Both the position numbers and the translations under genes were made by a program. From NCBI RefSeq assembly GCF_030930995.1, contig NZ_CP133217.1:3276001-3340000 (forward strand): a DNA stretch of 64,000 bases, in the 5' to 3' direction. The DNA is from Thiothrix subterranea (GTDB lineage Bacteria > Pseudomonadota > Gammaproteobacteria > Thiotrichales > Thiotrichaceae). The notes under the pieces are model-generated. The model ran no database searches. It was given only the letters and a program-made list of their open reading frames with translations, and was not told where the DNA came from. Below are positions 10,663 to 42,865 of the stretch, one piece after another (position 1 is the stretch's first letter; the number at the start of each line of letters is the position of its first letter).

Positions 10663-11981
10663 CCACGATTGACGAAAAACACAATGCCAGCGTTCCCGCC
10701 GGTCGCTTTGCACGCATGGCACGCCTCGGCTCACTCGCCACGGGGGTTGCAGGCGGGATGATCGCCGAAGGTGCGCGGCAACTCGCGCAAGGTAATCGCC
10801 CCAAAGTCAGCGATTTGCTGCTAACCCCCGCCAATGCCAAGCGCGTTGCCGACGAGCTGGCACGGTTGCGCGGTGCTGCGATGAAAGTCGGGCAATTGCT
10901 GTCGATGGATGCGGGCGATATGTTGCCTCCCGAATTGACCGAGATACTCTCGCGCTTGCGTTCCGATGCCAAACCCATGCCATTGAGTCAATTGGCAAAA
11001 GTATTGGATGAAAACTGGGGCAAAGGCTGGAATGCACGCTTCCAACAATTTTCGTTCCAACCACTGGCGGCGGCGTCCATCGGGCAAGTGCACTCGGCAC
11101 ACACCAAAGACGGGCGGCATTTGGCGCTGAAAATCCAATACCCCGGTGTGCGCGAAAGCATTAGCAGTGACGTGGATAATGTGGCGACTTTATTGCGCCT
11201 CTCCGGTCTGATTCCGAAAGGCGTGGACTACAAACACCTGTTGGAAGAAGCCAAGCAACAATTGCACCAAGAAGCCGATTACCTGCAAGAAGCCGCGCAC
11301 ATGCGGCATTACCAAACCTTGTTGGCAGATAGCCCCGAATTCACGCTTGCTGCCGTGCATGACGATTTCACCACCGTGAATATTCTGGCAATGACGCACA
11401 TTGGTGGCGTGCCGATTGAATCGCTGGTAAATGCGCCACAGGAAGAACGTGACCGCGTGGTGAGTTTGCTCATGGGCTTGTTGTTCCGCGAAATTTTCAG
11501 TTTCCGGCTGGTGCAAACCGACCCGAATTTTGCCAATTACCGTTATGACCGTGATACCCAGCAATTGATTTTGCTGGATTTTGGCGCAACCCGCGAATAC
11601 CCCGCTTACATTGCCGAAGGTTATCAGCAGGTAATGCAAGGTGCCGTGCAACAAGATCGCGCCATGATGGACGCGGGCGCGGCACAAATCGGTTTCTTTC
11701 AGGAATACATCAAGCCCGAACAACGCGAGGCTGTGCTGGATTTATTTGTGCAAGCCTGCGAACCGTTACGTTGGCAAGGCGCGTATGATTTTGGCACCTC
11801 GAATCTGCCCAGCCGGATTCGCGATGCGGGCATGGCGTTGAGCATGGAACAGGATTATTGGCATACCCCGCCTGCGGATGCATTGTTTTTGCACCGCAAG
11901 CTGGGTGGGTTGTATTTGCTGGCGGCGAAGCTGCGGGCGCAGGTGGATGTCGGTGGGTTGTTTGCGCAATACGCGCTATAG
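10659..11981 (+). CDS. ABC1/UbiB family atypical protein kinase
   Basis: A 440-residue ABC1 family protein. Visible motifs: KxGQ as MKVGQLLSMDAGDMLP near residue 75, the Ala-rich nucleotide loop AAASIGQVH, the Lys in LALKIQYPG, the catalytic-loop equivalent QTDPNFANYRY and metal-binding LDFGATREY. UbiB homologues act in ubiquinone biosynthesis or membrane lipid homeostasis. Starts at ATG 10659, coupled to the HNH-like gene. It ends convergently with hsdR, overlapping by 6 bases. The linkage with photolyase may only be local. Confidence 0.9.
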   Translation: MTTIDEKHNASVPAGRFARMARLGSLATGVAGGMIAEGARQLAQGNRPKVSDLLLTPANAKRVADELARLRGAAMKVGQLLSMDAGDMLPPELTEILSRLRSDAKPMPLSQLAKVLDENWGKGWNARFQQFSFQPLAAASIGQVHSAHTKDGRHLALKIQYPGVRESISSDVDNVATLLRLSGLIPKGVDYKHLLEEAKQQLHQEADYLQEAAHMRHYQTLLADSPEFTLAAVHDDFTTVNILAMTHIGGVPIESLVNAPQEERDRVVSLLMGLLFREIFSFRLVQTDPNFANYRYDRDTQQLILLDFGATREYPAYIAEGYQQVMQGAVQQDRAMMDAGAAQIGFFQEYIKPEQREAVLDLFVQACEPLRWQGAYDFGTSNLPSRIRDAGMALSMEQDYWHTPPADALFLHRKLGGLYLLAAKLRAQVDVGGLFAQYAL

Positions 11982-14333
11982 CGGCGCGTACAAGCGTTGC
12001 TGAAATTCGACGAACAGTTTTTTCACATCAGCGGCTTTGCCCAATTCTTCGGGCATATCGCGGATGCCTTGGTATTTCAGGTCAATGAAAGTTTTCAACT
12101 TGGTCGGCGCTAATTCGGTAATGCCATCATCGACGTAATGCCCCAGCACAAATTCGATGAATTCACGTTGTTTGTAGTTGTAGCCTTGGTAAATTCGCGT
12201 TTTGTGTGTAGCGATGCGCTCTTCACGTGTTTTCGGCGGCAAGGCAAACGCGATATGCGCCAGCACATCAAACAAGTCGCTGCGCTCGGCATTCACCGCA
12301 CGGCTGATCACTTGTAATTGTTGCGCGGCGTAACCTTTTGCCTGCAAGCCATCCAGCAAGCCTTGGCGGGTTTCGGGCTGACTCCACAAGGCACGTAATT
12401 CTTCCTCGTCCTTAAAAAATTCCGGCAGGGCGGTGTAAAACTGTTGCAGATAATCTTGCACGCTCATGGGTTTGCCGTCCTCGCCCAAGAATTCGGTAGA
12501 AATCAGGTTTTGAATGTTGTCGGCTTTGCCTGCTGCCAATTTTACTTTGGCGCGTTTGGGTGGTTGTAGGCAGTCGTTTGGTGCGCGTATTGATGGCGTG
12601 GGTTTGTCGCCTGCATCGCAGATACACACACGTTCATTGCAGACCTTACACACTTCCGGCTCGCCATCCCATTCGGGATCTTTGAAGTGTTCGTAGGCTT
12701 TCACGAAGTCGTAGAGGGTGAAGTAGTCTTTGAAATCGAATAGGCGCGTGCCACGCCCGACGATTTGCTTGAATTCGATCATGCTGGTGACGGGGCGCAT
12801 CAGGATGATATTGCGCATATTCCGCGCATCCACGCCAGTGGAGAGTTTGCGGGAAGTGGTCAAAATCGTGGGGATGTTTTTTTCGTTATCCTGAAACGCA
12901 CTCAGCAGGCGTTCGCCTTCTTTGCCGTCATCCGCCGCGACGCGCACGCAGTAATTGGGTTGGGTGCTGCGTTTCATCTGGTTGATGAGGTTGCGCACCG
13001 CTAAGGCGTGTTGCTGGGTGGCGCAAAATACCAAGGTTTTTTCGCTTTGGTCGATCAGGTTCATGAAGGTTTTGACCCGATGGCGTTCGCGGTCTTCGAT
13101 TTCCAGCACTCGATTCATTTCGGCTTCGGTGTAGATTCTGCCCTCTTCAACCTCACCTTCCAGCACTTCGTCGTCGGCGGCGTGGGTGTATTCGTCGAGG
13201 GTGCTGACAATGCGTTTAATCCGAAACGGGGTCAGGAAGCCGTCATTAATGCCTTCCTTGAGCGAGTAGGTGTACACCGCTTCGCCAAAATATTTGTAGG
13301 TGTCGACATTGCCGTCGCGTTTGGGCGTGGCGGTCAGGCCGATTTGTACCGCTGTGCTGAAATAATCCATGATGCCGCGCCAACTGCCTTCGTCGTTCGC
13401 GCCGCCACGGTGGCATTCGTCAATAATGATTAGGTCGAAAAAGTCGGGCGGGTAATCACCAAAGCTGGGGGTCGTGTTGCCCGCCGCATCCTTGGTGTCG
13501 GTCATGAAGGTTTGGAAAATGGTGAAAAACAGGTTGCCATTTTTGGGGACAGCTTTCTTTTTGCGGATGACATTCGGCGCAATCCGCACCATTGCATCTT
13601 CGGGGAAGGCGGAAAAAGCGTTGTAGGCTTGATTGGCGAGGATATTGCGATCCGTCAGAAACAGGATGCGCGGCTGACGGTCAACGCTGGTATCACCACG
13701 CCATGCTTTGACGTTCCAGCGGCTGTGGAACAATTTCCATGCAATTTGGAACGCTATCGCGGTTTTGCCTGTGCCGGTTGCCAGCGTGAGAAGGATGCGG
13801 TCTTTGCCGCTGATTAGGGCTTCGAGGGCAGCTTCAATGGCGTTGTGTTGGTAGTAGCGCGGTTTCCAAGTACCACTTTTGGTTTCAAAGCCAATTTGGG
13901 CAAATTTATTACGCCAGTCGCTTTCTTGCGCATAAACCATGTGCCAAAGCTCGTCGGGCGTTGGGTAACAATCGACGTAGCATTCCTGTCCGGTTTTCAT
14001 GTTGATGCGGTAGATTTCTTTGCCGTTGGTGGCGTAGGCAAAGGGTGTATTCAACAGTGTGGCGTAATCTTTGGCTTGTTGTACGCCTTCGGTGGGGTCA
14101 CGGCGTACCCGTTTGGCTTCGATGACTGCCAGCTTTTTACCTTTGTAAACGAGAACGTAATCTGCTTTGCGCGGTGTGCCGTGTTGACCACCACCAATCA
14201 ATGGCCCCGGTGTTATGACATATTCATCGTCTATATCCGACGTTGGGATTTCTTCCCATTGCGCGGTATACAATTTTTTATCTATCAGCTTGCGGCGAGT
14301 TTTGGCTTCGTTGTGGTTGAGTTCTGGAATCAT
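11976..14333 (-). CDS. hsdR: Type I restriction enzyme, R subunit (HsdR, EcoEI-like)
   Basis: A 785-residue protein. The N-terminal nuclease region has the PD-(D/E)xK elements as KADYVLVYKGKKLAVIEAKR. The SF2 motor has Walker A LATGTGKTAIA, DECH box IIIDECHRGG, motif III GLTATPKR and motif VI QIVGRGTR. A Cys cluster CKVCNERVCIC precedes the EcoEI-type C-terminal domain. It should form R2M2S with HsdM and HsdS and translocate and cleave unmodified DNA. Third gene of the minus-strand hsd locus, separated from hsdS by the toxin-antitoxin pair. Confidence 0.95.
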   Translation of the reverse strand: MIPELNHNEAKTRRKLIDKKLYTAQWEEIPTSDIDDEYVITPGPLIGGGQHGTPRKADYVLVYKGKKLAVIEAKRVRRDPTEGVQQAKDYATLLNTPFAYATNGKEIYRINMKTGQECYVDCYPTPDELWHMVYAQESDWRNKFAQIGFETKSGTWKPRYYQHNAIEAALEALISGKDRILLTLATGTGKTAIAFQIAWKLFHSRWNVKAWRGDTSVDRQPRILFLTDRNILANQAYNAFSAFPEDAMVRIAPNVIRKKKAVPKNGNLFFTIFQTFMTDTKDAAGNTTPSFGDYPPDFFDLIIIDECHRGGANDEGSWRGIMDYFSTAVQIGLTATPKRDGNVDTYKYFGEAVYTYSLKEGINDGFLTPFRIKRIVSTLDEYTHAADDEVLEGEVEEGRIYTEAEMNRVLEIEDRERHRVKTFMNLIDQSEKTLVFCATQQHALAVRNLINQMKRSTQPNYCVRVAADDGKEGERLLSAFQDNEKNIPTILTTSRKLSTGVDARNMRNIILMRPVTSMIEFKQIVGRGTRLFDFKDYFTLYDFVKAYEHFKDPEWDGEPEVCKVCNERVCICDAGDKPTPSIRAPNDCLQPPKRAKVKLAAGKADNIQNLISTEFLGEDGKPMSVQDYLQQFYTALPEFFKDEEELRALWSQPETRQGLLDGLQAKGYAAQQLQVISRAVNAERSDLFDVLAHIAFALPPKTREERIATHKTRIYQGYNYKQREFIEFVLGHYVDDGITELAPTKLKTFIDLKYQGIRDMPEELGKAADVKKLFVEFQQRLYAPL

Positions 14334-14490
14334 GAGTTAGCCCTGTTTTTGCGCCAATATCGCGCAAGATGGCTTGAATAGTAGCACTATCAAGGTTACT
14401 TATCATGGTTTTGTATAAGATTAGCTTGCTTGAAAAGACAGGGTGCGTATGACAAACTGCGAATGTTCCTACATCAAAGGAGAACTTAGA

Positions 14491-14865
14491 ATGCAAGTTG
14501 TCAATATACGCCAACTCAAGACCAATCCATCGGTTGCGTTGCGCGAAGCAAAGCGTGAACTCATGATGGTCACAAACCGTGATAAACCGGATGCACTCTT
14601 GGTTAGCATGGAGCAATTGTCTGGTATCCCCAATCTTGAGCAAGTGCGCCTAGTTCTCGGTGTCGCGATGTTTCGGGACAAATTGCTTTCGCTTGCAGCA
14701 GCGGCAAAAGTTGCGGGTAAATCATTGTCTGAAATGTTGACGCTGGTTTCTAATATGGGCATTCCGGTAGTCGATTATTCGGAAGAGGAAGCGGCAGCAG
14801 AGGCCGCTTTTGCAGAAAAATGGATTAACGAACGACAAGCACAAAAGGCTATAAAAGCGGCATGA
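14491..14865 (+). CDS. Antitoxin, Phd-like N-terminus with UPF0175 C-terminus
   Basis: A 124-residue protein. The N-terminus MQVVNIRQLKTNPSVALREA resembles Phd/YefM DNA-binding antitoxins, and the C-terminal half (KLLSLAAAAKVAGKSLSEMLTLVSNMGIPVVDY) matches UPF0175. The start at 14491 has AAAGGAG 8 bases upstream. The stop overlaps the toxin start (ATGA). UPF0175 and DUF3368 are a known toxin-antitoxin pairing. It probably represses its own promoter in 14334-14490. Confidence 0.88.
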   Translation: MQVVNIRQLKTNPSVALREAKRELMMVTNRDKPDALLVSMEQLSGIPNLEQVRLVLGVAMFRDKLLSLAAAAKVAGKSLSEMLTLVSNMGIPVVDYSEEEAAAEAAFAEKWINERQAQKAIKAA

Positions 14866-15386
14866 GTCAACAAATAGTCATTACCGATGCCAGCCCGTTG
14901 ATTGCGCTGGCACGCATTGGTCACATTCACTTGTTGCGCGAATTGTTCAGTGAAGTCTGGATCACTGAAACCGTTCGACAGGAAGTGTTGCTGGGTGGTC
15001 AGTTTAGCGATGCTGCGCCGATTGATGCCGCGATACAGGCAGGGTGGTTACAAGTTGAATTGCTGCCAGAAACCTTGCCAAGCCCTGCTGGTGTAGCGGC
15101 GTATGTTGCGGGGCTAGACCCCGGTGAAACCAGTGCGATTTTATGGGCGGCGGGGCTGCGACAAACGGGGCAACGTGTATTGTTGATCATGGATGAAATG
15201 AAAGGGCGAGCAGTAGCGCGGCGTTTATCACTAGAGATCATGGGCAGTGCGGGGATCATCGCCACAGCCAAACGATTGGGACTGATTCCACAAGCGCGTC
15301 CGTTACTGGAACAATTACAGGCTTCAGGGTATTACCTGTCACCTACAGTAGCGGAAATGGCGTTGAAAATTGCGGGAGAAGCGTGA
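14862..15386 (+). CDS. DUF3368 PIN-like toxin
   Basis: A 174-residue PIN-fold protein: the first acidic residue in VITDASPLIALARIG, GLDPGETSAILWA in the middle and LLIMDEMKGRAVARRL with the later acidic residues, then GSAGIIATAKRLG. Such proteins are presumed ribonucleases held in check by the upstream antitoxin. Start overlaps the antitoxin stop. The last 55 bases overlap the 3' end of hsdS on the other strand, so the two genes constrain one another's sequence. Confidence 0.88.
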   Translation: MSQQIVITDASPLIALARIGHIHLLRELFSEVWITETVRQEVLLGGQFSDAAPIDAAIQAGWLQVELLPETLPSPAGVAAYVAGLDPGETSAILWAAGLRQTGQRVLLIMDEMKGRAVARRLSLEIMGSAGIIATAKRLGLIPQARPLLEQLQASGYYLSPTVAEMALKIAGEA

Positions 15387-16651
15387 TTCTGGCTACTCAA
15401 TTGTGGATGCGGATGGTTAGCCGCCGTCAACTCGCCCGTAAACGCCTTCTGCAATAACGCCTGCTTCAACTCTGCCAACGCCGCCAACTTCCGCCGATAA
15501 ACACCCTCAAGCTCTTGAATAAAACTTTCGATATTAACCAAATTTTGGACTATAACTACTTGTTCTTCTAAGCTCGGAAATGGGACGGATAGGGAGCGAA
15601 AGAAACCTAAACTTAGATTTGCTCTGGCATTGTCAATCTCATTGTCATGCAAAATCTCCCTAAAGAATGGAGAGTTCAGGAGATAGGCAAGGTATTTGTT
15701 ATTCAAGTACCTTTGGTCACATCTAATTAAACAAACTGCTTGATTTATATTTGCCACATCATCTCTATCAAAAATGGCAGTCCTACCAATAGATGCGCCA
15801 ACTATATTAGTTAAAACATCGCCTTTCCTTAAAATTGATTTCTTGTCTTTTTCGTTAAAAACACTATCAACATACTTAACCTTATCAAGGAGAATTTTAT
15901 TTACTCCAACATTCTCACTCGTAACAAATAAAACCCCAGGATGGTCAATATAATTAACACCTTGCCAATTTGGAGATGAACCTTTAGTTATTTTTTCTGT
16001 TAGCTCATCTAAGATCTTTTCTTCCCATCCCTCACCCTTGCGCGTAAACACTTCATTCAAATAGCTGTCGAACAACTCGCGGGCGTTGGCAAGGTTCTTT
16101 TCAGCGTTGGCAACCGCTTGGCTGATGTTGGCAAAGGCTTCATCGAGAATCGCGACAATGCGGGTTTGTTCGGGGAGTGGGGGAAGAGAAACGACAAACT
16201 CTTCCAGTTGCAGTTTTGTAATTGCCTGTCTAGTCGAGCCTGATTCACCATGATGCAACAACAAATCTTTATATTTCTTTGAAGTCAGCAATATTGAAAG
16301 AAACTTGGAATCGACTAACTCAGGCTTCACCCTAATAATTGAAACATGCTGATTTACTCTTGCTGGTACAAGATCACTTGGCACTATGCAACAACGAGCA
16401 ACAGATGCTCCCGTAATATTCAAAAGAACATCATTTTCTTGCACAGTAACATTAGACAGCTTTTTTGCTTGTTGGTCATCTAAATAAGCCAAACCCGACG
16501 TTCTAAAGCCATCGTCATAAACATTTAAACTGCGTATTAAAGGAATGCCTTCTTCTTGATAAGATTCATGACCACCTTTCGGCGTAGCACCACTACCAAT
16601 TTTTGTCGTTATATCTTTTAGTCGATATTCTTTGTACATCTTTTTAAGCAT
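15332..16651 (-). CDS. hsdS: Type I restriction enzyme, specificity subunit (HsdS)
   Basis: A 439-residue protein with two target-recognition domains, each starting with a KIGSG- or KGSSP-type block (about residues 17-30 and 225-235), each followed by a conserved helix (LPPLPEQTRIVAILDEAF about 157-175; FPSLEEQVVIVQNL about 365-380). The recognised DNA sequence cannot be read from this. Base composition in the recognition domains is clearly more AT-rich than hsdM and hsdR, as usual for exchanged specificity genes. The C-terminus extends past QKAFTGEL by about 30 residues into the overlap with the DUF3368 gene. Confidence 0.93.
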   Translation of the reverse strand: MLKKMYKEYRLKDITTKIGSGATPKGGHESYQEEGIPLIRSLNVYDDGFRTSGLAYLDDQQAKKLSNVTVQENDVLLNITGASVARCCIVPSDLVPARVNQHVSIIRVKPELVDSKFLSILLTSKKYKDLLLHHGESGSTRQAITKLQLEEFVVSLPPLPEQTRIVAILDEAFANISQAVANAEKNLANARELFDSYLNEVFTRKGEGWEEKILDELTEKITKGSSPNWQGVNYIDHPGVLFVTSENVGVNKILLDKVKYVDSVFNEKDKKSILRKGDVLTNIVGASIGRTAIFDRDDVANINQAVCLIRCDQRYLNNKYLAYLLNSPFFREILHDNEIDNARANLSLGFFRSLSVPFPSLEEQVVIVQNLVNIESFIQELEGVYRRKLAALAELKQALLQKAFTGELTAANHPHPQLSSQNHASPAIFNAISATVGDR

Positions 16652-16698
16652 CGTCGTTGCTCCCGTTTAGCATCATCCGTTGGCGGGCGCATTCCGAA

Positions 16699-16797
16699 GA
16701 AACCCCTCCTAACCTCCCCTTATCAGGGGAGGAACAAGAGGTTGCTGCGTCTTTCTTACTCCCTTCCCTGATAAGGGGAGGGTTGGGGAGGGGTTTC
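16699..16797. repeat. 99-bp inverted repeat between hsdM and hsdS (MITE-like)
   Basis: Left arm 16699-16732 (GAAACCCCTCC...TTATCAGGGGAGG) and right arm 16761-16797 are near-perfect reverse complements, about 30 bp each, with a 28-base loop. The shape suggests a dispersed palindromic repeat, or a strong RNA hairpin in the hsdM-hsdS transcript. No coding capacity. Confidence 0.85.
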
Positions 16798-16807
16798 TTT
16801 TCTCTCA

Positions 16808-18304
16808 TCACAACAACCCCCGAATCACATCCAAAATCGCCTTACTCTCCGCATCCAACCCCGCAATCTCGTCAAGAATAGCCTGCGGTTCACGCAACGC
16901 CGCCGCTTCCTGCTTATTGGGATTCTTCACGGAAAGGTCGAAGCTGTCTTTGTCGACATCGGCAATCTTCACCGACCACGATTTTTCCGAGTCGGCAAAC
17001 GTGCTTTGCAGCGCGATAAACTCCTTCAGGTCGTTGTCGTTGAGCGGGTTGGTTTTGCCCATATTACGACCGGGATCAAGCTGGTAATACCAAACCTGTT
17101 GCGTCGGCTCGCCCTTGTCAAAAAACAGCACCACATTTTTCACGCCCGATTGATATACGCCAGCGGGGCAATCCAACACGGTATGCAAATTGCAATTTTC
17201 CAGCAATTCCTGCCGCAACGCTTTGGAAGCGTTATCCGAATTCGACAGGGTAGTGTTTTTAAGAACTATCGCAGCTCGACCCTTCGCTTTGAGGTATTTG
17301 ATGAAATGTTGCAGGAACAAAAACGCGGTTTCGCCGGTTTTGATCGGGAAATTCTGCTGGATTTCAGGGCGTTCTTTGCCACCATTAGGTACAGCAGAAA
17401 GGATGACGTGATAGCGGTCTTTTTCCTGCACATCCGCCAGATTTTCCGCCAGCGTATTGGCGTGGATAATGTTCGGCGCATCCACCCCATGCAAAATCAG
17501 GTTCATAACCGCAATCACATACGCAAGGCTCTTCTTTTCCTTGCCGTACAGCGTGCGCGTTTCCAACGCATCGAGTTCATCGGTTTTGAGCGGGCGGCTA
17601 GAACCATCCGGCGCGTAACGCAAATAGTTGAACGCCTCGCACAAAAACCCCGCCGAACCACACGCGCCGTCATACACACGTTCACCAATGCGCGGCTGCA
17701 CCACCTGAATCATCACCCGAATCAGCGGACGCGGGGTGTAATATTCGCCGCCATTGCGCCCCGCATTGCCCATGTTCTTGATCTTGGATTCATACAACGC
17801 GGAAAGCTCGTGCTTTTCCGCCTGCGAACCAAACGTGAGTTGATCCACCAACTCCAGCGCATCGCGCAAGGAATAACCGCTGGCAAACTTGTTCTTGATC
17901 TCGCTGAAAATCTCGCCGATTTTGTACTCAATCGTCTCCGGCGACGACGCGGATTCCTTGAAGCTCTGCAAATACGGAAACAGCTTGTTATCCACGAAGC
18001 GGATCAGGTCAGGCCCCGTTTTGGCATTATCACGGTCAGGTTTACCGTCTTTTTTGGGCGCTGCCCACGTCGACCAGCGATATTCCGCATCAATGATGTA
18101 TTCGTAAGGAATGTCGCCAAGCTCGGCTTCCTGCTCGTATTCCTGTTCCAAATCATCGAGGTATTTTAAAAACAGAATCCACGACGATTGTTCGGTGTAA
18201 TCGAGTTCCGAGGAGCAACCCGCCTCTTTCCACAATACGTCATCGAGATTTTTAAAGGTTTGTTCAAACATGCGTGGGGCTTTGTCAGCAGTAGGGGCTG
18301 CCAT
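16808..18304 (-). CDS. hsdM: Type I restriction enzyme, methylase subunit (HsdM) with altered motif IV
   Basis: A 498-residue protein with the HsdM N-terminal helical domain and the N6-adenine methyltransferase domain. Motif I (AdoMet binding) is DGACGSAGFL near residue 215, and GGEYYTPRPLI precedes it. The catalytic motif IV normally reads NPPF in the context LSNPPFGGKER; here it reads LSAVPNGGKER (residues 304-307, bases 17384-17395), with flanks fully conserved. The Asn and aromatic residue needed for adenine methylation are therefore missing at their usual place. The rest of the protein is full length and in frame. First gene of the hsd locus, divergent from glcD. Confidence 0.93.
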   Translation of the reverse strand: MAAPTADKAPRMFEQTFKNLDDVLWKEAGCSSELDYTEQSSWILFLKYLDDLEQEYEQEAELGDIPYEYIIDAEYRWSTWAAPKKDGKPDRDNAKTGPDLIRFVDNKLFPYLQSFKESASSPETIEYKIGEIFSEIKNKFASGYSLRDALELVDQLTFGSQAEKHELSALYESKIKNMGNAGRNGGEYYTPRPLIRVMIQVVQPRIGERVYDGACGSAGFLCEAFNYLRYAPDGSSRPLKTDELDALETRTLYGKEKKSLAYVIAVMNLILHGVDAPNIIHANTLAENLADVQEKDRYHVILSAVPNGGKERPEIQQNFPIKTGETAFLFLQHFIKYLKAKGRAAIVLKNTTLSNSDNASKALRQELLENCNLHTVLDCPAGVYQSGVKNVVLFFDKGEPTQQVWYYQLDPGRNMGKTNPLNDNDLKEFIALQSTFADSEKSWSVKIADVDKDSFDLSVKNPNKQEAAALREPQAILDEIAGLDAESKAILDVIRGLL

Positions 18305-18419
18305 GATAACTGAAAATTTACCAAGGTTTCCTACTCCTAACAGCGGATATTAATTTTCTGTTGGAAATACGCTACAGTAGTACCCACACAACAAGATTAT
18401 CCAAGGTCAGATTATTTCC

Positions 18420-19889
18420 GTGAACACTGCTACAGCCTCTTACTCAGCGTTGCTCCAGCAACTCAAAGACATTTTGCCGGAGGATGCGATTCTCACCGCG
18501 AAGGAGGATCTGCACCCCTATGAGTGTGACGGCATGAGCGCTTATCGGCGTCTGCCCCTCGCTGTGGTCTTGCCTACCACCACCGAACAAGTGCAATTGA
18601 TCCTCAAAACCTGTTCACGTTTGAAAGTGCCGGTGGTGGCACGCGGTGCGGGTACTGGGCTTTCTGGCGGGGCGCTGCCTCACGAACAAGGCATTGTATT
18701 GAGTCTGGCGCGTTTCAAACAAATCTTGGAAATTGATACCGCCAATCTACACGCCCGTGTGCAACCGGGGGTACGCAACCTCGCGATCAGCCAAGCCGTG
18801 GATCACTTGGGGCTGTTTTACGCCCCCGACCCCTCGTCACAAATTGCCTGCTCGATTGGCGGAAATGTCGCGGAAAATTCCGGCGGAGTGCATTGCCTGA
18901 AATACGGTTTAACGGTACACAATATTCTCGAAATCAAACTCGTCACCATTGATGGCGAACTCATGACCATCGGCAATGACCGCCAAGACACCCCCGGCTA
19001 CGATTTACTGGCATTGCTGACCGGTTCGGAAGGCATGTTGGGCGTGGTCGTCGAAGTATTGGTTAAACTCACCGTCAAACCCGACACGGTGCAAGTGTTA
19101 ATGGCAGATTTCGCAGCGGTGAACGATGCCGGTGATGCAGTAGCCGCGATTATCAGCAAAGGCATTATCCCCGCCGGGCTGGAGATGATGGATAACCCCG
19201 CGATTCGTGCCGCCGAAGATTTCATCCACGCAGGCTACCCGATTGATGCGAACGCCATTTTGTTGTGTGAACTCGATGGCACCGAAGATGAAGTCAGCGA
19301 ACAAGTCGCCCGCGTCAGTGCCATTCTCAAAAATCACCGCGCTGGCACGATTCACATTGCTAAAACCGCTGCCGAACGCGCCCGTTTGTGGGCAGGGCGC
19401 AAAGCCGCTTTCCCCGCTGTGGGGCGTATCTCCCCGGATTATTACTGCATGGATGGCACAATTCCACGTAAGCATCTAGCACACGTCTTAAACCAAATTA
19501 ATGAGTTTTCGCAGCAATACGGCTTAGGGGTTGCGAATGTGTTTCACGCTGGTGACGGTAATTTACACCCACTGATTCTTTATGATGCCAATCGTGCTGG
19601 TGAATTGGAAAAAGCCGAACGTTTCGGTGCGGATATTCTGGAATTATGTGTTAAAGTCGGTGGTTCTATCACGGGCGAACATGGCGTGGGGCATGAAAAG
19701 CTGGACTCGATGTGTGTGCAATTTGGCGAAGCCGAACTCGAAGTCTTCCATGCCGTCAAACGTGCATTCGACCCTGACGAACTACTAAACCCCGGAAAAG
19801 CTGTCCCTACCTTGCACCGTTGCGCAGAACTGGGTGCAATGCACGTCCATCACGGACAGCTTTCTCACCCTGAACTGCCAAGATTTTGA
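18420..19889 (+). CDS. glcD: Glycolate oxidase FAD subunit GlcD
   Basis: A 489-residue FAD-linked oxidase. FAD-binding PCMH blocks are VARGAGTGLSGGALP and SSQIACSIGGNVAENSGGVHCLKYG; C-terminal FAD oxidase blocks are FHAGDGNLHPLI and GGSITGEHGVG. With GlcE and GlcF it oxidises glycolate to glyoxylate. The likely start is GTG 18420, with AAGG about 13 bases upstream, which is rather far. It heads the plus-strand glcDEF operon; the 114 bases shared with hsdM hold the promoter. Confidence 0.95.
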   Translation: MNTATASYSALLQQLKDILPEDAILTAKEDLHPYECDGMSAYRRLPLAVVLPTTTEQVQLILKTCSRLKVPVVARGAGTGLSGGALPHEQGIVLSLARFKQILEIDTANLHARVQPGVRNLAISQAVDHLGLFYAPDPSSQIACSIGGNVAENSGGVHCLKYGLTVHNILEIKLVTIDGELMTIGNDRQDTPGYDLLALLTGSEGMLGVVVEVLVKLTVKPDTVQVLMADFAAVNDAGDAVAAIISKGIIPAGLEMMDNPAIRAAEDFIHAGYPIDANAILLCELDGTEDEVSEQVARVSAILKNHRAGTIHIAKTAAERARLWAGRKAAFPAVGRISPDYYCMDGTIPRKHLAHVLNQINEFSQQYGLGVANVFHAGDGNLHPLILYDANRAGELEKAERFGADILELCVKVGGSITGEHGVGHEKLDSMCVQFGEAELEVFHAVKRAFDPDELLNPGKAVPTLHRCAELGAMHVHHGQLSHPELPRF

Positions 19890-31580: not shown

Positions 31581-31594
31581 TGGTCGGGACGAAA
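31581..31594. other. Left attachment site of the tRNA-Pro element
   Basis: TGGTCGGGACGAAA matches exactly the last 14 bases of tRNA-Pro (reverse strand) at 45935-45948. It lies 10 bases after the terminator of tRNA-Arg, with no other tRNA body attached, as expected for the displaced att copy. Confidence 0.85.
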
Positions 31595-31726
31595 CCCATT
31601 GAAAGAAGCTCATAAGCAGGTGATTAACAAAGATTACTTGCTAGGCAAAAAATAGCCATACCGTAACGATACCGCGTGAACCATTGGGGGCGTGAATGCT
31701 CTTGTTACGTGAGAAAACAAAAAAAG

Positions 31727-31852
31727 TTCCAACATTTCCAACAAAGCAAAAAAAGAGAGTATAGAAATAGTATAAGTTATTATTTTATATATACTTTTCC
31801 TTACCCTCTATCTGTTGGAAATCACTTCCAACATTTTCCAACATTTCCAACA
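31727..31852. repeat. Left cluster of TTCCAACA octamers
   Basis: Forward copies at 31727, 31736, 31826, 31836 and 31845 and one inverted copy at 31813, most spaced 9-10 bases apart. The same octamer is clustered at 44199-44389 near the other end. Between the blocks is an AT-rich stretch. Confidence 0.9.
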
Positions 31853-31865
31853 AACGCACCAGCCA

Positions 31866-31892
31866 CAAAAAAGCCGGGTATCGCTCCCGGCT
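31866..31892 (-). terminator. Terminator of the second recombinase gene
   Basis: Minus strand: AGCCGGG-AGCGATA-CCCGGCT then six T. It lies 27 bases after the recombinase stop. Confidence 0.9.
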
Positions 31893-31918
31893 CACTGGCA
31901 ATCAATCACCCAATGGAT

Positions 31919-32872
31919 TCAGAGAAACGAACTCCCGGCATGGTCTTTGAACATTTCAGCATTGCGAACATAGCCTTTCACCGTCTGCACTGACTTGTGG
32001 CGTGATACATCCATAATCTTGAACAGGTTAGCGCCCGCTTCCGCTGCACTGGTGATGAATCCCGCCCGCAAGGAATGCCCCGCGAATTGATCGGGGTCAA
32101 GCCCTGCCAGTTGTGCATATTTCTTCACGGTTTCAGCAATGCTTTTGTCGCTGATCGCTTGGGGGCGTAAGTTGCCGCCTTTGGTGATCGGTCGGAATAA
32201 CGCGCCCTCAGTAATGCCAGCCGATTGAATGTAGCCTTGCAGGATACCGACCACGTTTAAGCGCCCGTTGTAAATGGCGATGGTTTGCCCTTGCGCCTCT
32301 TGGTCGGTCTTGGATTTGCGTATAGTGATCTTCGCCCCATCGGTTACGAACTCAATATCTGACAGTTCCAGCCCTGCCAGTTCCGAGCGCCGGAATGCAC
32401 CAGCAAACCCTAACAACAAAATAGCCCGGTCACGTTTGCCCTGTAGCGTCTTTGCATCACACTGGGCAATCATGCTGTAAATCTTATCCACGGTAGCCGC
32501 TGCTTTCTTTTCAGGTTTTGCGCCGGTTGCCCTGCGAATGCCTTTCAGTGTGGCACTCACCAGCTTGTCGCCAGTCGGTGAAGTTATTCCCTCCCATTCA
32601 TGGGCGTAACGGATAGCAGCAATGCGCCGGTTCAAAGTGGAAGGCGAAACACCGACTTTAGCTTGATGTGCCAGAAAGTCGGCAATGGTAGCGGGTTGTG
32701 CTGGCATTGCCTCAAATCCGCGTTCGTTGCACCAGTCGGCAAAAATGCGTCCGTCACTGAGGTAAGCTTTCAACGTCGATTCACTAATAGACTGGCGAAT
32801 GTATTCTCTGGCTTGCGCCCCCACTTCCCCAATGGTTAAGTTTGTGTTGCTTGTAGTTGTCAAAGTACCCAT
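31919..32872 (-). CDS. Tyrosine recombinase (second site-specific recombinase of the element)
   Basis: A 317-residue XerC-like enzyme: N-terminal SAM-like core-binding domain (about 15-110), catalytic Arg in GAFRRSELAGL, Lys in KSKTDQEAQGQ, H-x-x-R in HSLRAGF, His in SRHKSV and Tyr in VKGYVRNAE. All catalytic residues are there. It is much shorter than the P4-type integrase at the other end and of a different subgroup. It could act in resolution, inversion or a separate mobility event. Confidence 0.92.
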   Translation of the reverse strand: MGTLTTTSNTNLTIGEVGAQAREYIRQSISESTLKAYLSDGRIFADWCNERGFEAMPAQPATIADFLAHQAKVGVSPSTLNRRIAAIRYAHEWEGITSPTGDKLVSATLKGIRRATGAKPEKKAAATVDKIYSMIAQCDAKTLQGKRDRAILLLGFAGAFRRSELAGLELSDIEFVTDGAKITIRKSKTDQEAQGQTIAIYNGRLNVVGILQGYIQSAGITEGALFRPITKGGNLRPQAISDKSIAETVKKYAQLAGLDPDQFAGHSLRAGFITSAAEAGANLFKIMDVSRHKSVQTVKGYVRNAEMFKDHAGSSFL

Positions 32873-32980
32873 GTTTCACCCTGCTTATTAGTTCCGAGAA
32901 TAACGATTATCGGAAGTAATAATATATTATCTGCCCATGCACTAGCAAGCGTTCCATGTGGTGCTGAATCTGGTACACAC

Positions 32981-33006
32981 AAAAAAGCCGGGTGATGTTC
33001 CCGGCT
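32981..33006 (-). terminator. Terminator of the replication operon, abutting the group II intron
   Basis: Minus strand: AGCCGGG-AACATCA-CCCGGCT then six T. The intron begins 3-4 bases beyond the hairpin, so it separates this terminator from the operon end at 34940. Confidence 0.88.
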
Positions 33007-33009
33007 CTT

Positions 33010-34936
33010 GTGTACGCCCGACATGGGCATGAACTCATGGGGTGCAAGTCCCCTGTAGGAGAACCCACCGTTCTGGCTTTCAGAGCGGCATAACTACTAG
33101 CCGACGGCAACTGCCACCCCGCGAGGGCTGGTGGGAAGGAAGCCGAAGCGCAAAACTGCGAGCCTACGGACAGAAACGTCATACAAGGCTGAGTCTCAGG
33201 GATGAGTGGGCACAAGGTCACGAAATCCAGTGGTTCGCGAGATACAGTAAATGACGGGGTTGTGCAGTGACAGTTCATGTTCTTATTCGGGGAGATCTGC
33301 TTAACCAGCGGTCGTCGTGAACCCGTACAGGCGCGGGTATAGAAAAGGTCTGGGCGTTCTGGCATGTCATCCGCCAGCAGCGAGCGAACCGGATGACAAA
33401 CGGCAGCGCGGCGGGAGCAATCTTCACCGTGATTAAGCAGAAGTCAGCAGACGGCATAGTAGCCCAACGCCCGGCGTAATGGCGGGGACACGGTGAAGGC
33501 CGGAACATCAGGGGAGGAGCAGCCCACCTGACCTTGGCGGCAGCGATGCCAAAGGCGGTCAACGTGGCAGCGAGCCTCCCACAACATCCATTGAGCAACC
33601 ATGAACATGGAACAAACCTTACTGAATGACATTTTGTTGCCCACCAACCTGCACCCGGCATGGAAACATGTGCGGCAGAACAAGGGCAGCGCAGGCATCG
33701 ACGGCATCACGCTGGACGCCTACCCGGACTGGGCGAAAGCCCACTGGGCAAACATCCGGCGCGGGTTGCTGGCGGGTTATTATTGCCCGCAGCCAGTCAG
33801 ACGGGTAGAGATTCCAAACCGAACGGCGGTGTCCGTTTGCTGGGTATTCCCACCGTCAACGACCGGCTGATCCAGCAAGCCATCGTACAACGCCTGCAAC
33901 CGTTGGTTGACCCCAGCTTCTCGGAACACAGCTACGGCTTCCGTCCGCACCGTTCAGCCCACCACGCCATCAGGGCGGTACAAGGCTTCATCCGGCGCGG
34001 CGACCGTTACGCCGTGGACATCGACCTGTCGAAATTCTTCGACAACGTAGACCACGACCTGCTGATGCACCGGCTGGGCAAACGGGTCAACGACCCGCAT
34101 GTTCTTACCCTGATCGGCAAATACCTGCGGGCAGGTGTCAGCCACCACGGCAACATCGAAGCCACCCACGGGGTGTCCCCCAAGGTGGTCCACTGTCGCC
34201 ACTGTTGGCAAACATCCTGCTCGACGACCTTGACCGGTTTCTGGAACGTAAAGGCTACCGGTTCGCCCGTTACGCCGACGACTTCGTGATTGGCGCAAAA
34301 ACCCTTGCAGAAGGGCAGCGCATCAAAACTGAAGTCGAAACCTTTCTGCAAACCCTCAAGTTGCCGGTCAACGCCGACAAAAGCAGCGTCCTGCCGATGA
34401 ACGAACTCTGCTTCCTCGGCTGCCAGTTCCGGGGACTCCACCTTATCTGGAGTCCTGCGAGTCTGGCAGCCTTCAAGCACCGTATTCGCCAACTGACCAA
34501 CCGCTCGTGGGGCGTCAGTTGGGAATACCGCTACCGGAAGCTGAAGGAATACCTCACCGGCTGGATGAACTACTTTGCTCTGGTCATCTTTGACCCGGTG
34601 GAACGGCTGGACTACTGGATACGGCGCAGAATCCGCATGTGCTACCTCAAGCAATGGCGGAAACCGCGCACCCGCATCCGCAACCTGATCAAGCTGGGCG
34701 TCCCGGAACGGTTGGCGGTCAGCATCGGGTTGAGTTCCAAAGGCTACTACCGGCTGGCAAAGACCAAGGCCATGCAAATGGGGCTGTCGAATCGCTGGCT
34801 GAAGGAACAAGGGTTAGTGTCGCTCAAGGATCAATGGGTCAAGTGCCGTTATCCCAACGGCTGATGAACCGCCCTGTGCGGAGCCGCACGCAGGGTGGTG
34901 TGGGGGCTGGGGGTTAGAAACCTCCGGCTACCCGAT
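33010..34936 (+). mobile_element. Group II intron, bacterial type, with decayed maturase gene
   Basis: 5' end near 33010 (GTGTACGCCCGACATGGGC, GUGYG-like), about 590 bases of structured RNA, then a reverse transcriptase reading region, then a domain V hairpin at about 34864-34900 and a domain VI helix ending CTACCCGAT at 34936. It sits directly 3' of a terminator hairpin, as is usual for class IIC introns; class assignment is inference. End positions are good to a few bases. Confidence 0.85.
33601..34864 (+). pseudogene. ltrA: Group II intron reverse transcriptase/maturase with two frameshifts
   Basis: Conceptual protein of about 421 residues with RT blocks: GSAGIDGIT, RLLGIPTVNDRLIQQAI, SYGFRPHRSAHHAI, DIDLSKFFDNVDHD, GGPLSPLLANILLDDLD and catalytic FARYADDF, then a maturase domain ending VKCRYPNG. 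No HNH endonuclease domain. One base appears lost near 33813-33818 (IPKPNGGV block) and one in the G run at 34170-34173 (GVPQGGPLSP block), so three frames are needed to read it. Either real decay or two homopolymer errors. Confidence 0.88.
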
Positions 34937-34939
34937 TTG

Positions 34940-35218
34940 TTATGCGGCTCTTCCCCCGCTGGGTGAGTAAAACGGTTTCGGTGCTGATTGCTGTCTAAGT
35001 TGGTCAAGCTCCTTAAAAAGCGTGTTGATTGTTCGCCGCCTGTCCCCTGTCGCCGGTATCTTCCATGAACTCACCACGCGCCCATAGCGACGCAACTCCA
35101 AAACATCAGCGTTAATCCGCATCACCTGAATGTCATCACCTGCCCAAACATGCCAGACACCGCCCACACTCTTGGAAACCTGCATTTCACGAACGGTAGC
35201 AATAGGAATATTTTTCAC
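34940..35218 (-). CDS. Small element protein, unknown
   Basis: A 92-residue soluble protein (SVGGVWHVWAGDDIQVMRINADVLELRRYGRVVSSWKIP) with a beta-rich middle and a helical C-terminus. It follows the DUF3987 gene by 10 bases and is the last gene of the replication operon. The stop is 3 bases from the intron end. No family recognised. Confidence 0.7.
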   Translation of the reverse strand: MKNIPIATVREMQVSKSVGGVWHVWAGDDIQVMRINADVLELRRYGRVVSSWKIPATGDRRRTINTLFKELDQLRQQSAPKPFYSPSGGRAA

Positions 35219-35228
35219 TGCCCTACCC

Positions 35229-36665
35229 TCACGCTATCAGTTTCAAAATGGCGGCTCTCTTGCCGCTTGCGTCGAACTCCTCAAACTCACCCACGATACC
35301 CTTGTCTATCAATCCGTCGATGGTATCGCGCATGGCTTGCCCCGCCGCTGCTTTGGGTAATTCTGACCACGGCTTTGCTTTGTGTTTGGCCTGATGGAAT
35401 TGCCGACGTGTTGCCGTGCGTTTTTCGGATAGGTAGGCAATAACGGAATCTTCAAGGGCATTCGTGCCGATCACATCAAGCTCTATCAACAGACGATAGG
35501 TGTACTCCAACATATCCCGAACAATGCCTATAGCCGAATCTACCCACTGACTAGGGATTAATCCCGGTGGGCATTCATCCAATACAGCAAGGTTTGCGGC
35601 GATTTTCATGATTTGAATATCGACCTTGCCGACAATGCTTTTTAGGGTTTGACTGCTGTATTTGCCGCCGCTGATCGTGTGCGGCTCTACCTCATTTTGT
35701 AGTGTATAAACCTTGTCCCAGTCCTCACGGGATAGCCGATAGCCGGGCAGTTGTTCAACGGGTTGGTTTTGGGTTGCCAGTACCGTTAAGCCCTGCATGA
35801 TGCGATTGTATGCGCCTTGGTCGCCCTCATTGGGAAAGTGGCGATATTCGCGCCCATGCTTGCGTGTGCCTAATAGGGATTCTTCGGAAATCATCAGGCA
35901 ACGTTCCGCCGCGCCTGAATGGTCGCTTTGGGTGAGGATGGTTTGCACTAAGCCGGGTTGCGCAATGTTCACGACTGCGCCCACAACATCACCAGTATAC
36001 CCGCCGCGCCCTTTCCGCTTGCTGCCGTGATGTTCAGCATTGCAACCTTTCAGCCATAAATCATTATTGGTTTTGCCAGCGCCATAACTTGCGCCGCTGA
36101 TTGAGTTAGCCAGCCCTTTTTCAGCACTGGCAAGCGCAAAATATCCATTTGTTGCTGATAGCGTTTGGTCTAACCCTTCCGGCGTCACATCGGTGTCATA
36201 CGAAAAGTTAGGGAATGGCTCATAAAAATCTTCTTTTGCCGCTTCCGCTGCCTGTTTGCGGCTCTTCCAGTCGGATACAAGCGCCTTCACGCTGGAAAAA
36301 ACAGGCGATTGATACGTTTTAAGCATCCAGCTTTTACCCGTACCACTGTCATGTTCTGCGAGAATGTATAAGCCTAAAGGCAAGTATCCGCGCTCCTCAT
36401 AGCTCACCACAAAGCACCGTGCCGTTACAGTCGACACAATGCCAAGCCCTACCAAAAAGCTGGTATTCGCGGGTATACGGGTCATTTTCGCCACGTCTAT
36501 GACGTATCGCTTAAACATGCAATCGGGGATGTGTTTCAACAAATCCAGCTTATGCACTGGTGCTGCTTTCGGCTCTGGTGCGGATTGTTGACGTTTAGCG
36601 CCCGCTGGATACTCAATTACTGTCGAGCCTAAGCCGGGTGAAGATGGTTTTAATGGTGCGGTCAT
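35229..36665 (-). CDS. DUF3987 family replication-associated protein
   Basis: A 478-residue protein with a helicase-like N-terminal part: CFVVSYEERGYLPLGLYILAEHDSGTGKSW (Walker A as SGTGKSW near residue 109), then a long helical region and DHSGAAERCLMISE, as in DUF3987 (YfjI-like) proteins of phages and islands. It follows the Toprim gene by 38 bases. The two together look like the split primase-helicase of P4-type elements. Confidence 0.82.
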   Translation of the reverse strand: MTAPLKPSSPGLGSTVIEYPAGAKRQQSAPEPKAAPVHKLDLLKHIPDCMFKRYVIDVAKMTRIPANTSFLVGLGIVSTVTARCFVVSYEERGYLPLGLYILAEHDSGTGKSWMLKTYQSPVFSSVKALVSDWKSRKQAAEAAKEDFYEPFPNFSYDTDVTPEGLDQTLSATNGYFALASAEKGLANSISGASYGAGKTNNDLWLKGCNAEHHGSKRKGRGGYTGDVVGAVVNIAQPGLVQTILTQSDHSGAAERCLMISEESLLGTRKHGREYRHFPNEGDQGAYNRIMQGLTVLATQNQPVEQLPGYRLSREDWDKVYTLQNEVEPHTISGGKYSSQTLKSIVGKVDIQIMKIAANLAVLDECPPGLIPSQWVDSAIGIVRDMLEYTYRLLIELDVIGTNALEDSVIAYLSEKRTATRRQFHQAKHKAKPWSELPKAAAGQAMRDTIDGLIDKGIVGEFEEFDASGKRAAILKLIA

Positions 36666-36703
36666 GATACTATTTTCCTGTTCAAATGATTTTCAAAGCC
36701 CGA

Positions 36704-37843
36704 TTAAGCCGCCTGCTTGTCGGGTTTTTTTTCGCCTTGAATTTGTGCTGTGTGCCAGTCGTTCCAGTCGCCCGCCGTTGGGGGGGTGATGACCGCCGCG
36801 TTTGTGGCTGTTGCTGCTTTGGTGGCGTAATACTTGCCGGGGTTGTTGACCGTCTGCCCTGCTACCTTGATATTGCTTTCGAGGTCGTTATCGACTGCAA
36901 AAATGATTTCACTATCGGGATACCGATCACGCGCCCACTTTCCCGCGCTCATTAAATTGCTGGTAGCAAATGCCAAGATGACCGGGTTACGGGTGCGTAT
37001 GTGTACCGCTACGCCGGTAGCCCATCCTTCAGCGATATACAGCCGGTTTGGTGTTTCGCCAGTCGTTAAGCCGCCGCCAATCCACAAAAGCCCATCCTTG
37101 AACGTTCCGCGCATCAACTTGAACCCGCTTTCGGTAATTTGCTGGATGCCCTGCAATGCGCCTGTGTGGTCATATGCGGGTATCAGCAAATCAGAGGGCG
37201 TGATGTATTGCGCCCGACTCTCTGCCGTTTCTGGTGCAATCTGATAGCGTTTGGTGGCTTGTCTTGCCCCAATGGATAGAATCAGCTTCTTTGCTGTGTA
37301 GGGGTGATCGTGTGACGCTGGCACTGACTCAGTAATGACCGTTTGCAAGATTGCCAGCAATGCCGCCCGGTCACGTTCCGCCTGTTGCGCCGCTGCATCC
37401 GCCTTGGCTTGCGCCTCTTCCCGCTTGCGCCGGTATTCCTCTGGTTCAAGGTATTCGCCATGCCCTTCGGCAAGCCATGCAGGTACGGATAACGTGACAG
37501 AATCACCCTTGCTTAGATTCCCGGTCAATACTTCGATTTTAGCCAGTGGAAACCAATTACCAGCCCCTTCCAGAATGACGGCTTTCTCAGTAATCGCCCC
37601 CACAATGCCGCTGATACGCACCAGTTCCGCGCCTTCTTGATAGGTGTAGATGTCATCACCTTGTTTGTGATCGAGATAACGCACAAGTAACCTACCTGTC
37701 GGCAAGATTTGCCCTGTATATCTGATTTTATCCGCGCCCTTGCCGTCACAAGACGGCTTGCCGGAATGCCACATACCATTAATCAGAGGATTTGCAATCA
37801 CCCTCCCAATGGTTTGCATCATGTGTTGCTGTAGGGTCATCAT
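36704..37843 (-). CDS. Toprim-domain primase-like protein
   Basis: A 379-residue protein. The N-terminal part is beta-rich, then a Lys/Ala coiled coil (about 130-165), then a Toprim domain: LYIAEGWATGVAVH (the conserved Glu), ILAFATSNLMSAGKW, and EIIFAVDNDLE (DxD). The end GDWNDWHT is typical of the D5/primase-associated Toprim group. The start overlaps the upstream stop (ATGA). Confidence 0.85.
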   Translation of the reverse strand: MMTLQQHMMQTIGRVIANPLINGMWHSGKPSCDGKGADKIRYTGQILPTGRLLVRYLDHKQGDDIYTYQEGAELVRISGIVGAITEKAVILEGAGNWFPLAKIEVLTGNLSKGDSVTLSVPAWLAEGHGEYLEPEEYRRKREEAQAKADAAAQQAERDRAALLAILQTVITESVPASHDHPYTAKKLILSIGARQATKRYQIAPETAESRAQYITPSDLLIPAYDHTGALQGIQQITESGFKLMRGTFKDGLLWIGGGLTTGETPNRLYIAEGWATGVAVHIRTRNPVILAFATSNLMSAGKWARDRYPDSEIIFAVDNDLESNIKVAGQTVNNPGKYYATKAATATNAAVITPPTAGDWNDWHTAQIQGEKKPDKQAA

Positions 37844-38175
37844 TTTTCGCCCCCTTGCAATGAGTCGATAAGCGCACGGTGAAGGATGATGTTTAAGGCA
37901 ACCTCACAATCCTTCTGGTGATACGTTGAACCAAAGGCAAGCGCCACGATTGTTCTAAGCATGGTTCGCCCTTCGCCCTGCCCGTTCGTGCTGCAATAAC
38001 CACTATCCAGAGAAACCGTTCCAATCCTGATTTTTGAATGGGTTGTGCTGAATGGCGGATTTAAAAAGAATTCAATGTGCTTCATTGAAAAGCTTTGTTC
38101 AATTGATTTGCCAATATGCCCGGATTCTTCCAGCCAGTTAGCAAGTTCGATAGGCTTGGGTAATTGTTCGATCAT
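37840..38175 (-). CDS. Small protein between alpA and the Toprim gene, unknown
   Basis: A 111-residue soluble protein (FFLNPPFSTTHSKIRIGTVSLDSGYC...). I start it at ATG 38175, which overlaps the AlpA stop as ATGA; the stop overlaps the Toprim start the same way. No family recognised. The position suggests a replication accessory role. Confidence 0.72.
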   Translation of the reverse strand: MIEQLPKPIELANWLEESGHIGKSIEQSFSMKHIEFFLNPPFSTTHSKIRIGTVSLDSGYCSTNGQGEGRTMLRTIVALAFGSTYHQKDCEVALNIILHRALIDSLQGGEK

Positions 38176-38372
38176 GCCGCTACCCTCCGAGATTGAATCC
38201 ACGCATCAACCTCAGATTCACGCCAGCCTACAGCCGCTTGTGACAGTCGAACCGCTGCCGGGAAGTCGCTGTTCTGGTCATTTGATAAACGGTAAACGCT
38301 GGATTTTGATAAGCCGGTTTTGTGCATGACGGCTTGCAGTCTGATAATGCGGTCTGGGTTTGGTTGGTTCAT
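38172..38372 (-). CDS. AlpA-family DNA-binding regulator
   Basis: A 66-residue MerR-like winged helix protein: IIRLQAVMHKTGLSKSSVYRLSN, then FPAAVRLSQAAVGWRESEVDAWIQSR, the typical AlpA core. Such proteins regulate excision and replication of integrated elements. It is the first gene of the replication operon, right after a 337-base region with strong hairpins. Confidence 0.92.
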   Translation of the reverse strand: MNQPNPDRIIRLQAVMHKTGLSKSSVYRLSNDQNSDFPAAVRLSQAAVGWRESEVDAWIQSRRVAA

Positions 38373-38390
38373 GGTCTTGCGTCCTAATTT

Positions 38391-38462
38391 GCACGACCAT
38401 AAAAAAAGGTCGTGCGGATAACGTATGCAGTATTAATACTGCGGTTATCTGCTACGACCTTT
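38391..38462. repeat. Nested inverted repeats upstream of alpA
   Basis: Two alternative hairpins share sequence. Hairpin A: GCACGACC (38391) with GGTCGTGC (ending 38415), loop AT plus seven A. Hairpin B: from about 38406 (AAGGTCGT) to 38462 (ACGACCTT), arms about 28 bases, with the perfect palindrome GCAGTATTAATACTGC at its centre. A and B cannot form together. The rest of 38373-38709 has no gene; it may hold the alpA promoter or an origin. Confidence 0.85.
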
Positions 38463-38709
38463 TCAGAATCCCGAATGGGTTTGCTCTGTGTTAGATGTTT
38501 GGCAGGTTACAGCCGGTTCAGCGCGTCTCAGAGTTCCGGTTACGGATTGTTCTGAGAGTTGCTTTGTCGGTTGCCTATGCAGTAAATACTAAGTTCGGTT
38601 CTTTGTAGCGTCAAGCGTTTTATGTGTGCTTATGTTCATCGGTCATGTTTTCAGTCCCCAATGGGGTTAAATATGGGCAGTTTGATATTATCGCCCTGCC
38701 CTGTTTCGA

Positions 38710-38895
38710 TTATTGCGCCAGTAGCGCCGCTATTTCCTTATCAATCCTTTCAGGTGGCAAATCAGCGGGAAAATAAACCGTTCCATGTGTCGAGCCGAAA
38801 GCGTTTATTTCATCCATCAAATCAGCTTCCGCTTTGTCGTAAATCCAATAGCCGTCTAACCAGTAATAAACGGGTTTCATGTTTTGGTCTTGCAT
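38710..38895 (-). CDS. Small protein downstream of the large membrane gene, unknown
   Basis: A 61-residue acidic protein (MKPVYYWLDGYWIYDKAEADLMDEI..., C-terminal helix). It lies 47 bases after the large membrane gene, preceded by GAGGAT at 8-10 bases. The composition looks like a real protein. No family recognised. Confidence 0.6.
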   Translation of the reverse strand: MQDQNMKPVYYWLDGYWIYDKAEADLMDEINAFGSTHGTVYFPADLPPERIDKEIAALLAQ

Positions 38896-38942
38896 AGTCG
38901 TATCCTCTTTAAGTGGGGGCGATATTTCACGCCCCCGATTAA

Positions 38943-40562: not shown

Positions 40563-40575
40563 GATGATTTTCCCC

Positions 40576-41589: not shown

Positions 41590-41692
41590 ACTGGTTACTC
41601 TCAAATGGTTGTCAGTAAATGGCTGTTTTGGTGCTGGTAACACCTCACAGCCCGGTAATGCCCCATCGGTTCAAACCTTTGGGGCGTTTTCG

Positions 41693-42007: not shown

Positions 42008-42010
42008 GGG

Positions 42011-42616: not shown

Positions 42617-42634
42617 AGGTTTATTTCTCTGTGT

Positions 42635-42835: not shown

Positions 42836-42865
42836 GATTTGCTTCCTAGTGTCTTAATGGTGACT

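Follow-up and report, generated by a model that had tools for sequence, protein, structure and literature searches.

A possibly modification-deficient type I restriction-modification operon in Thiothrix subterranea, with three rewritten blocks in the HsdM target-base pocket

The window, a 64,000 nt stretch of the Thiothrix subterranea genome, carries a type I restriction-modification operon in which hsdM differs from its closest orthologues in three short blocks of codons, and all three blocks are parts of the target-base pocket of the methyltransferase: motif IV, a strand next to it, and the loop of motif VIII. The reading preferred here, for and against which the chances appear evenly balanced, is that the target pocket has been replaced and that the type I operon is deficient in modification. 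If so, N6 (m6A) methylation would most likely have been lost through the missing catalytic Asn and the missing stacking aromatic, with the complex still assembling, and HsdM can probably no longer mark the cell's own DNA. A sequence-only reading of this DNA had reported a change in motif IV alone; that change is real, but two further blocks had been overlooked, and it was comparison with close orthologues that turned a motif-level oddity into the replacement of a pocket in three blocks.

In motif IV, HsdM reads SAVPN where ANPPF stands in relatives. The sequence-only reading had placed the motif correctly, in position and in frame, within an open hsdM on the minus strand, but its statement that all four motif residues are changed applies to three of them, with A, V, and N in place of N, P, and F, the second proline (P306) being kept. 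Nor are the flanks intact, as it had supposed, since Ala303 is replaced by Ser and every codon from 303 to 310 differs from the three closest orthologues. These orthologues, the closest among the loci compared, are in G010, G003, and G011, with 95, 93, and 91% protein identity.

By tblastn, an HsdM could be aligned at 95 loci; AVPN is confined to that of the window, and the other 94 read NPPF. The genome-contig loci of this set are the best 80 of 568 relatives. Among the 94 are seven distant type I HsdMs, of which two come from the genome of the window, and one genome is present twice (L009 and L093). Motif IV is covered in eight of ten relatives on viral contigs (L117 and L118 lack coverage) and reads NPPF in all eight. 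A degenerate DNA pattern for AVPNGGKE, applied to 369 genomes sampled from the class, is matched in one, the window's own. The suggestion that AVPN might be a lineage variant, for which an alignment of homologues had been proposed, is therefore rejected, as the three closest orthologues and the other aligned relatives read NPPF. NPP(Y/F/W) is the motif IV criterion of the gamma-class N6-adenine methyltransferases (PMC3874165); of the features expected in an active member of that class, this HsdM has the SAM-binding motif I, but AVPN does not agree with the motif IV pattern.

Table 1. Features of the operon and of hsdM (positions in the window)
Feature	Position	Strand	Remarks
Island	11970..18325		Absent from G001; flanks join at L148 3700|3701, equivalent to window 11969|18326
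hsdR	11976..14333	-	785 aa, open; EcoAI/EcoEI-like; Pfam ResIII, EcoEI_R_C, HSDR_N
Antitoxin-like gene	14443..14865	+	Inside operon; Pfam UPF0175, and a weak Phd/YefM match under the Pfam cut-off
DUF3368 partner gene	14862..15386	+	Pfam; 3' end overlaps the hsdS 3' end
hsdS	15332..16651	-	439 aa, open; Pfam Methylase_S; TRDs of low GC3, TRD bounds set by eye
hsdM	16808..18304	-	498 aa, open frame; Pfam N6_Mtase (189.1 bits) and HsdM_N; PADLOC MTase_I (509.7 bits)
Block 3, motif VIII region	17135..17167	-	Codons 380–390, PAGVYQSGVKN; 10/12 aligned codons differ (3 synonymous, 1 deleted)
Block 2	17249..17281	-	Codons 342–352, GRAAIVLKNTT versus GRAAVVIKNTF in orthologues; 8/11 codons differ (5 synonymous)
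Block 1	17375..17398	-	Codons 303–310, SAVPNGGK; 8/8 codons differ from three orthologues (4 synonymous)
Motif IV	17384..17395	-	A304-V305-P306-N307 in place of N-P-P-F, from alignment to relatives
Motif I, SAM-binding region	17642..17677	-	VYDGACGSAGFL (residues 210–221); normal for the clade
GGEYYTPR loop	17729..17752	-	Residues 185–192, unchanged; by eye at the place of the PacII AGEF/AAEF pocket motif (PMC9613975)

Across the three blocks (Table 1) there are 26 changed codons, of which 12 are synonymous, 13 are non-synonymous, and one is deleted, leaving block 3 one residue shorter than in the orthologues (PSGTFIGAGVKT to PAGVYQ-SGVKN) with the frame preserved. That 12 of the 26 are synonymous argues for block replacement rather than point decay, and point changes under selection would be no explanation. 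There are 57 private base changes in hsdM among the 1342 positions at which G010, G003, and G011 agree; they are concentrated in the three blocks, and none of them is in codons 311–341 or 353–376. The densest 36 comparable bases hold 16 private changes, a density reached in none of 2000 shuffles, while the densest stretches of the same size in G010 and G003 hold 3 and 4 (reached in 1718 and 118 of 2000 shuffles, respectively). DNA identity to G010 is 95.7% outside the blocks and 53.3% inside, and to G003 it is 94.2% outside and 55.6% inside.

The hsdM of G011 also has a private cluster, of 11 changes in 36 nt (0 of 2000 shuffles), at about codons 60–80 and outside the pocket, a result that tells against the preferred reading. 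Blocks of differences as dense as those in the window, and somewhat longer, are seen in hsdM among the genus relatives, at about codons 60–80 (G011) and at codons 229–250 (G003/G011), in each case outside the active site.

Conservation across the family gives the same distribution. The relatives used were of a minimum length and had an identity of 58% or more for HsdM and of 40% or more for HsdR, with identical rows collapsed and the window's own loci excluded, and for HsdM a column was considered near-invariant when conserved in at least 97% of the 94 distinct relatives so obtained. The window HsdM departs at 10 of 196 such columns and all ten are within the three blocks; as controls, the orthologues of G010 and G003 each deviate at 0 of 197. 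Six of these near-invariant columns lie beyond motif IV, in the clade-conserved pocket elements IKNTFLS and GTFxGAGVKT. A coarser test of private changes, restricted to window genes with three to five relatives matching over 80% of the length (12 genes, with phr dropped for its single relative), gave a maximum for hsdM of 5 in 12 residues. The nine testable genes other than hsd, from ten chosen, had at most 2 in 12 residues, which supports block replacement in hsdM.

The role of the blocks can be seen by comparison with the type I methyltransferase PacII, where the flipped base is caged by F180, P287, Y288, and F373, while N285 and P286 hold its amino group, such that N285-P286-P287-Y288 is the NPPY motif (PMC9613975). 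Block 1 is the NPP(F/Y) motif of this pocket. Pocket mutants of PacII are described in the same paper, those in M1 affecting both methylations and those in M2 lowering m4C. The earlier expectation that changing the Asn and the aromatic usually abolishes N6 methylation agrees with this structure and these mutants, and loss of methylation here is likely. Tyr384, in block 3, is aligned with Phe in 5ybb and 3ufb, and not clearly so in 2okc; we take it, by position only, as the probable equivalent of PacII F373. Block 2 is on the strand that leads into a helix in the AlphaFold2 model (residues 338–353). This strand we presume to be at motif VI/VII. PacII M1M2S, a non-canonical type I methyltransferase, is similar in fold to the window HsdM (TM 0.6–0.7), but its two M subunits retain NPPF and NPPY, whereas the window locus has a single hsdM with AVPN. 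The known NPPF and NPPY motifs are recounted in PMC11073494. No description of a replaced HsdM pocket of this kind was found in the literature searched, though the print record may still hold one.

The remainder of HsdM is ordinary. The AlphaFold2 model has a mean pLDDT of 87.8, from an alignment of 42 relatives and the query (L015, L027, and L054, 3 of 45, having been dropped for a stop in the translated stretch), and its best PDB matches, 3ufb and 5ybb, are both type I M subunits. Residues 381–390 have a mean pLDDT of only 76 and the model therefore says little on block 3. The motif I form YDGACGSAG, considered as a clade-wide oddity, was rejected as such, since no other form is as common in the clade (42 of 95 loci, that of the window among them). 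The true start of hsdM may, judging from the relatives, be Met12, where the stretches of relatives G017 and G030 start; position 1 is ATA in three closer relatives. In one HsdM relative, from a Thiobacillaceae MAG (L054:253-1704), the aligned stretch is interrupted by a stop at its residue 69; this copy may be broken, or the assembly may be in error.

With hsdR, hsdM, and hsdS together and the expected domains in each by Pfam and PADLOC, this is a type I restriction-modification locus. Its HsdM, HsdS, and HsdR families match those of the EcoAI/EcoEI-like (type IB) systems, with an HsdR of the EcoEI_R_C or EcoAI-FtnUII kind, and several of the plasmid homologues listed are annotated as of the EcoAI/FtnUII family; at the bench, membership of the EcoAI family is defined by complementation and by cross-reactivity of antibodies (PMC3874165). 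It differs from these systems in having three parts of the HsdM pocket replaced (motif IV, the strand next to it, and the loop of motif VIII), and in the presence of the antitoxin-like and DUF3368 pair between hsdS and hsdR, on the strand opposite to that of the hsd genes. The earlier remark that HsdR and HsdS look intact is supported, both being open with their domains present and the HsdR motifs recognized. Nuclease and helicase motifs are found in HsdR, where those we take to be D..ExK, Walker A, and the helicase motifs were picked out by eye on the alignment.

Over its first half, HsdS is almost the same as its G003 counterpart. HsdR is, from the comparison of relatives, a mosaic, with diverged residues 1–165 and a remainder that is mostly like G003. 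Residues 1–165, the nuclease domain, have only 64–65% identity to the genus relatives, while beyond residue 165 most 25-codon windows are 88–100% identical to G003 DNA, with a few at 83–85%; against G010 and G011, one 25-codon window in this part is at 48%. In the coarser test described above, 484 HsdR columns are conserved in five relatives and the window HsdR deviates at 28 of them, the densest being 5 in 12 residues near the N-terminus, equal to the hsdM maximum by that measure; this makes the locus mosaic beyond HsdM and tells against the preferred reading. This divergence appears hardly to touch the positions that are invariant in the family, as deviations at near-invariant HsdR columns number 3 of 230 under one length filter and 2 of 229 under another.

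It is suggested, then, that a type I operon of the EcoAI/EcoEI kind, sitting in the genome as an island, had the HsdM pocket for the flipped target adenine swapped at three short stretches, recombination with foreign, AT-richer sequence being the most likely route. Such a source is favoured because the GC3 of the blocks is low and like that of TRDs, because the exchange of TRDs by recombination is established (PMC3874165), and because dense blocks occur elsewhere in the hsdM of relatives. Block GC3 is 0.30 against 0.58 in the window genes, a value as low being obtained in 1.6% of 5000 random draws, and it resembles that of the HsdS TRDs (0.29 and 0.30). Recombination tracts are usually longer than three tracts of 24–33 nt with DNA free of private changes between them, which counts against recombination. 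The HsdM so altered would still fold and bind SAM and HsdS, and the complex would still bind DNA, without methylation. HsdR would then face unmethylated host sites, its activity being restrained by ClpXP restriction alleviation, unless the locus is silent, with the net result of a modification-deficient and probably restriction-attenuated system.

The collections searched yielded no donor, which also counts against recombination. Within the genome, the block 1 pattern with up to 3 mismatches matches only itself, and the block 3 pattern is found in 398 sampled genomes of the phylum only in that of the window. On viral contigs there is no match to the block 3 pattern, and the lone match to block 1 (L108) is a chance one in a frame that is not HsdM, so this candidate was rejected. 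Among plasmids, the 25 aa block 3 peptide matches 66 records at no more than 73% identity, most of the 30 listed being annotated as type I or N-6 methylases and some having no annotation. The 24 aa block 1 peptide has no match among phages, a weak test that also missed all 92 records with distant whole-HsdM matches. Local template switching was rejected, since the blocks match other parts of the window over 11–12 nt at most, as is usual for random 33-mers. No repeat that would explain the blocks was found by repeat search, and nothing in 11800–18500 scored above the Rfam gathering score.

The strongest rival to pocket replacement, unlikely but deserving of weight, is that the blocks are not natural and that the record was edited, mis-built, or altered, or the strain engineered, with the pocket codons rewritten. 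The replacement of 8/8, 8/11, and 10/12 codons, synonymous ones included, beside codons 311–341 and 353–376 that are free of private changes, would fit this, as would the fact that all three blocks strike the target-base pocket. Block DNA is not found elsewhere in the collections searched, one chance match aside, and the window and G000 are the sole readable copy, where the collections may omit near copies. Ordinary sequencing or assembly errors are, however, not expected to give in-frame blocks and a clean deletion of one codon, the nine other testable window genes are without such blocks, and dense differences in blocks are seen in the hsdM of relatives too. Ordinary decay, in which the motif of a dying locus is lost by accumulated point mutations, is already disfavoured by the clustering and is improbable: while the loss of a catalytic motif can come early in decay, the ten deviating near-invariant columns are all in the blocks and none elsewhere, synonymous and non-synonymous changes cluster together, and hsdM, hsdS, and hsdR are open over their full length.

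It is similarly doubtful that the pocket has been remodelled, so that HsdM is active on another or a modified base or serves as a methylation-independent sensor licensing HsdR. Three pocket elements have changed in concert, position 384 is still aromatic (Tyr for Phe), P306 and the GGEYYTPR loop are retained, one residue is lost without loss of frame, and no near-invariant column outside the blocks deviates, all of which would be in keeping with a pocket that still functions. Against this, Ala304 lacks the Asn side chain, Asn307 cannot stack as Phe or Tyr does, and the pocket motif is seen in 0 of 94 other aligned loci. Least probable is protection in trans, by another methyltransferase of the cell acting at the same sites. 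At least five other N6-methyltransferase-like genes in the genome have motif IV intact, these being the five that cover it (L002, L003, L005, L006, and L008) among eight other methyltransferase matches, where L004 and L007 have no coverage of motif IV and one more match has no locus. Apart from HsdS itself, the genome has four matches to it, all weak, the best having 33% identity over residues 18–174, and a shared bipartite site, and thus rescue by another system, is therefore unlikely.

The sequence-only reading had argued that a cell with active restriction and no methylation would die, which is not general for type I systems, and a clpX gene is present in the window's genome. Types IA and IB share the degradation of HsdR by ClpXP (PMC12707154), and control of the window system by ClpXP may be proposed by analogy with E. 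coli enzymes. The state expected for the window locus is that of the E. coli type I R+M- mutants, with restriction subunits but no modification and with restriction alleviation (PMC4231737); those mutants were made in the laboratory, whereas the several replaced pocket blocks of the window locus stand in a genome record. A caution in favour of the lethality argument comes from the type IB system EcoAI, where pre-expressed hsdR kills the recipient once the other genes enter and ClpX counters this (PMC12707154).

If the replacement is real, this is a natural type I system in which the self-marking pocket has been replaced and the remaining machinery kept, from which it can be tested whether such operons persist modification-free under restriction alleviation, and whether a second pocket chemistry exists. 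It is rather improbable, though worth stating, that the locus belongs to an unsampled lineage of type I M subunits with a non-canonical pocket (AVPN / KNTT / GVYQ-SGVKN), acquired piecewise and serving a target other than adenine or a methylation-free HsdR sensor.

The whole operon is absent from G001, a close sister species and the closest of the five genus genomes by enolase (99% identical); the flanks join directly there, so the operon is either there in full or missing altogether. The flanking genes, which we take to be an aarF/UbiB-type gene and glcD, lie on either side of the island, and in G003 and G010 the operon adjoins the same aarF-type gene as in the window. Between hsdM and hsdS there is an inverted repeat (16703–16791) with 30 nt arms that are 83% complementary and a REP-like look. 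Elsewhere in the window, about 14.3 kb (31594–45935) is missing from G001 at the same place, with genes that we presume to be recombinase-like near both ends (31919–32872 and 44504–45778), and this region is probably an integrated element.
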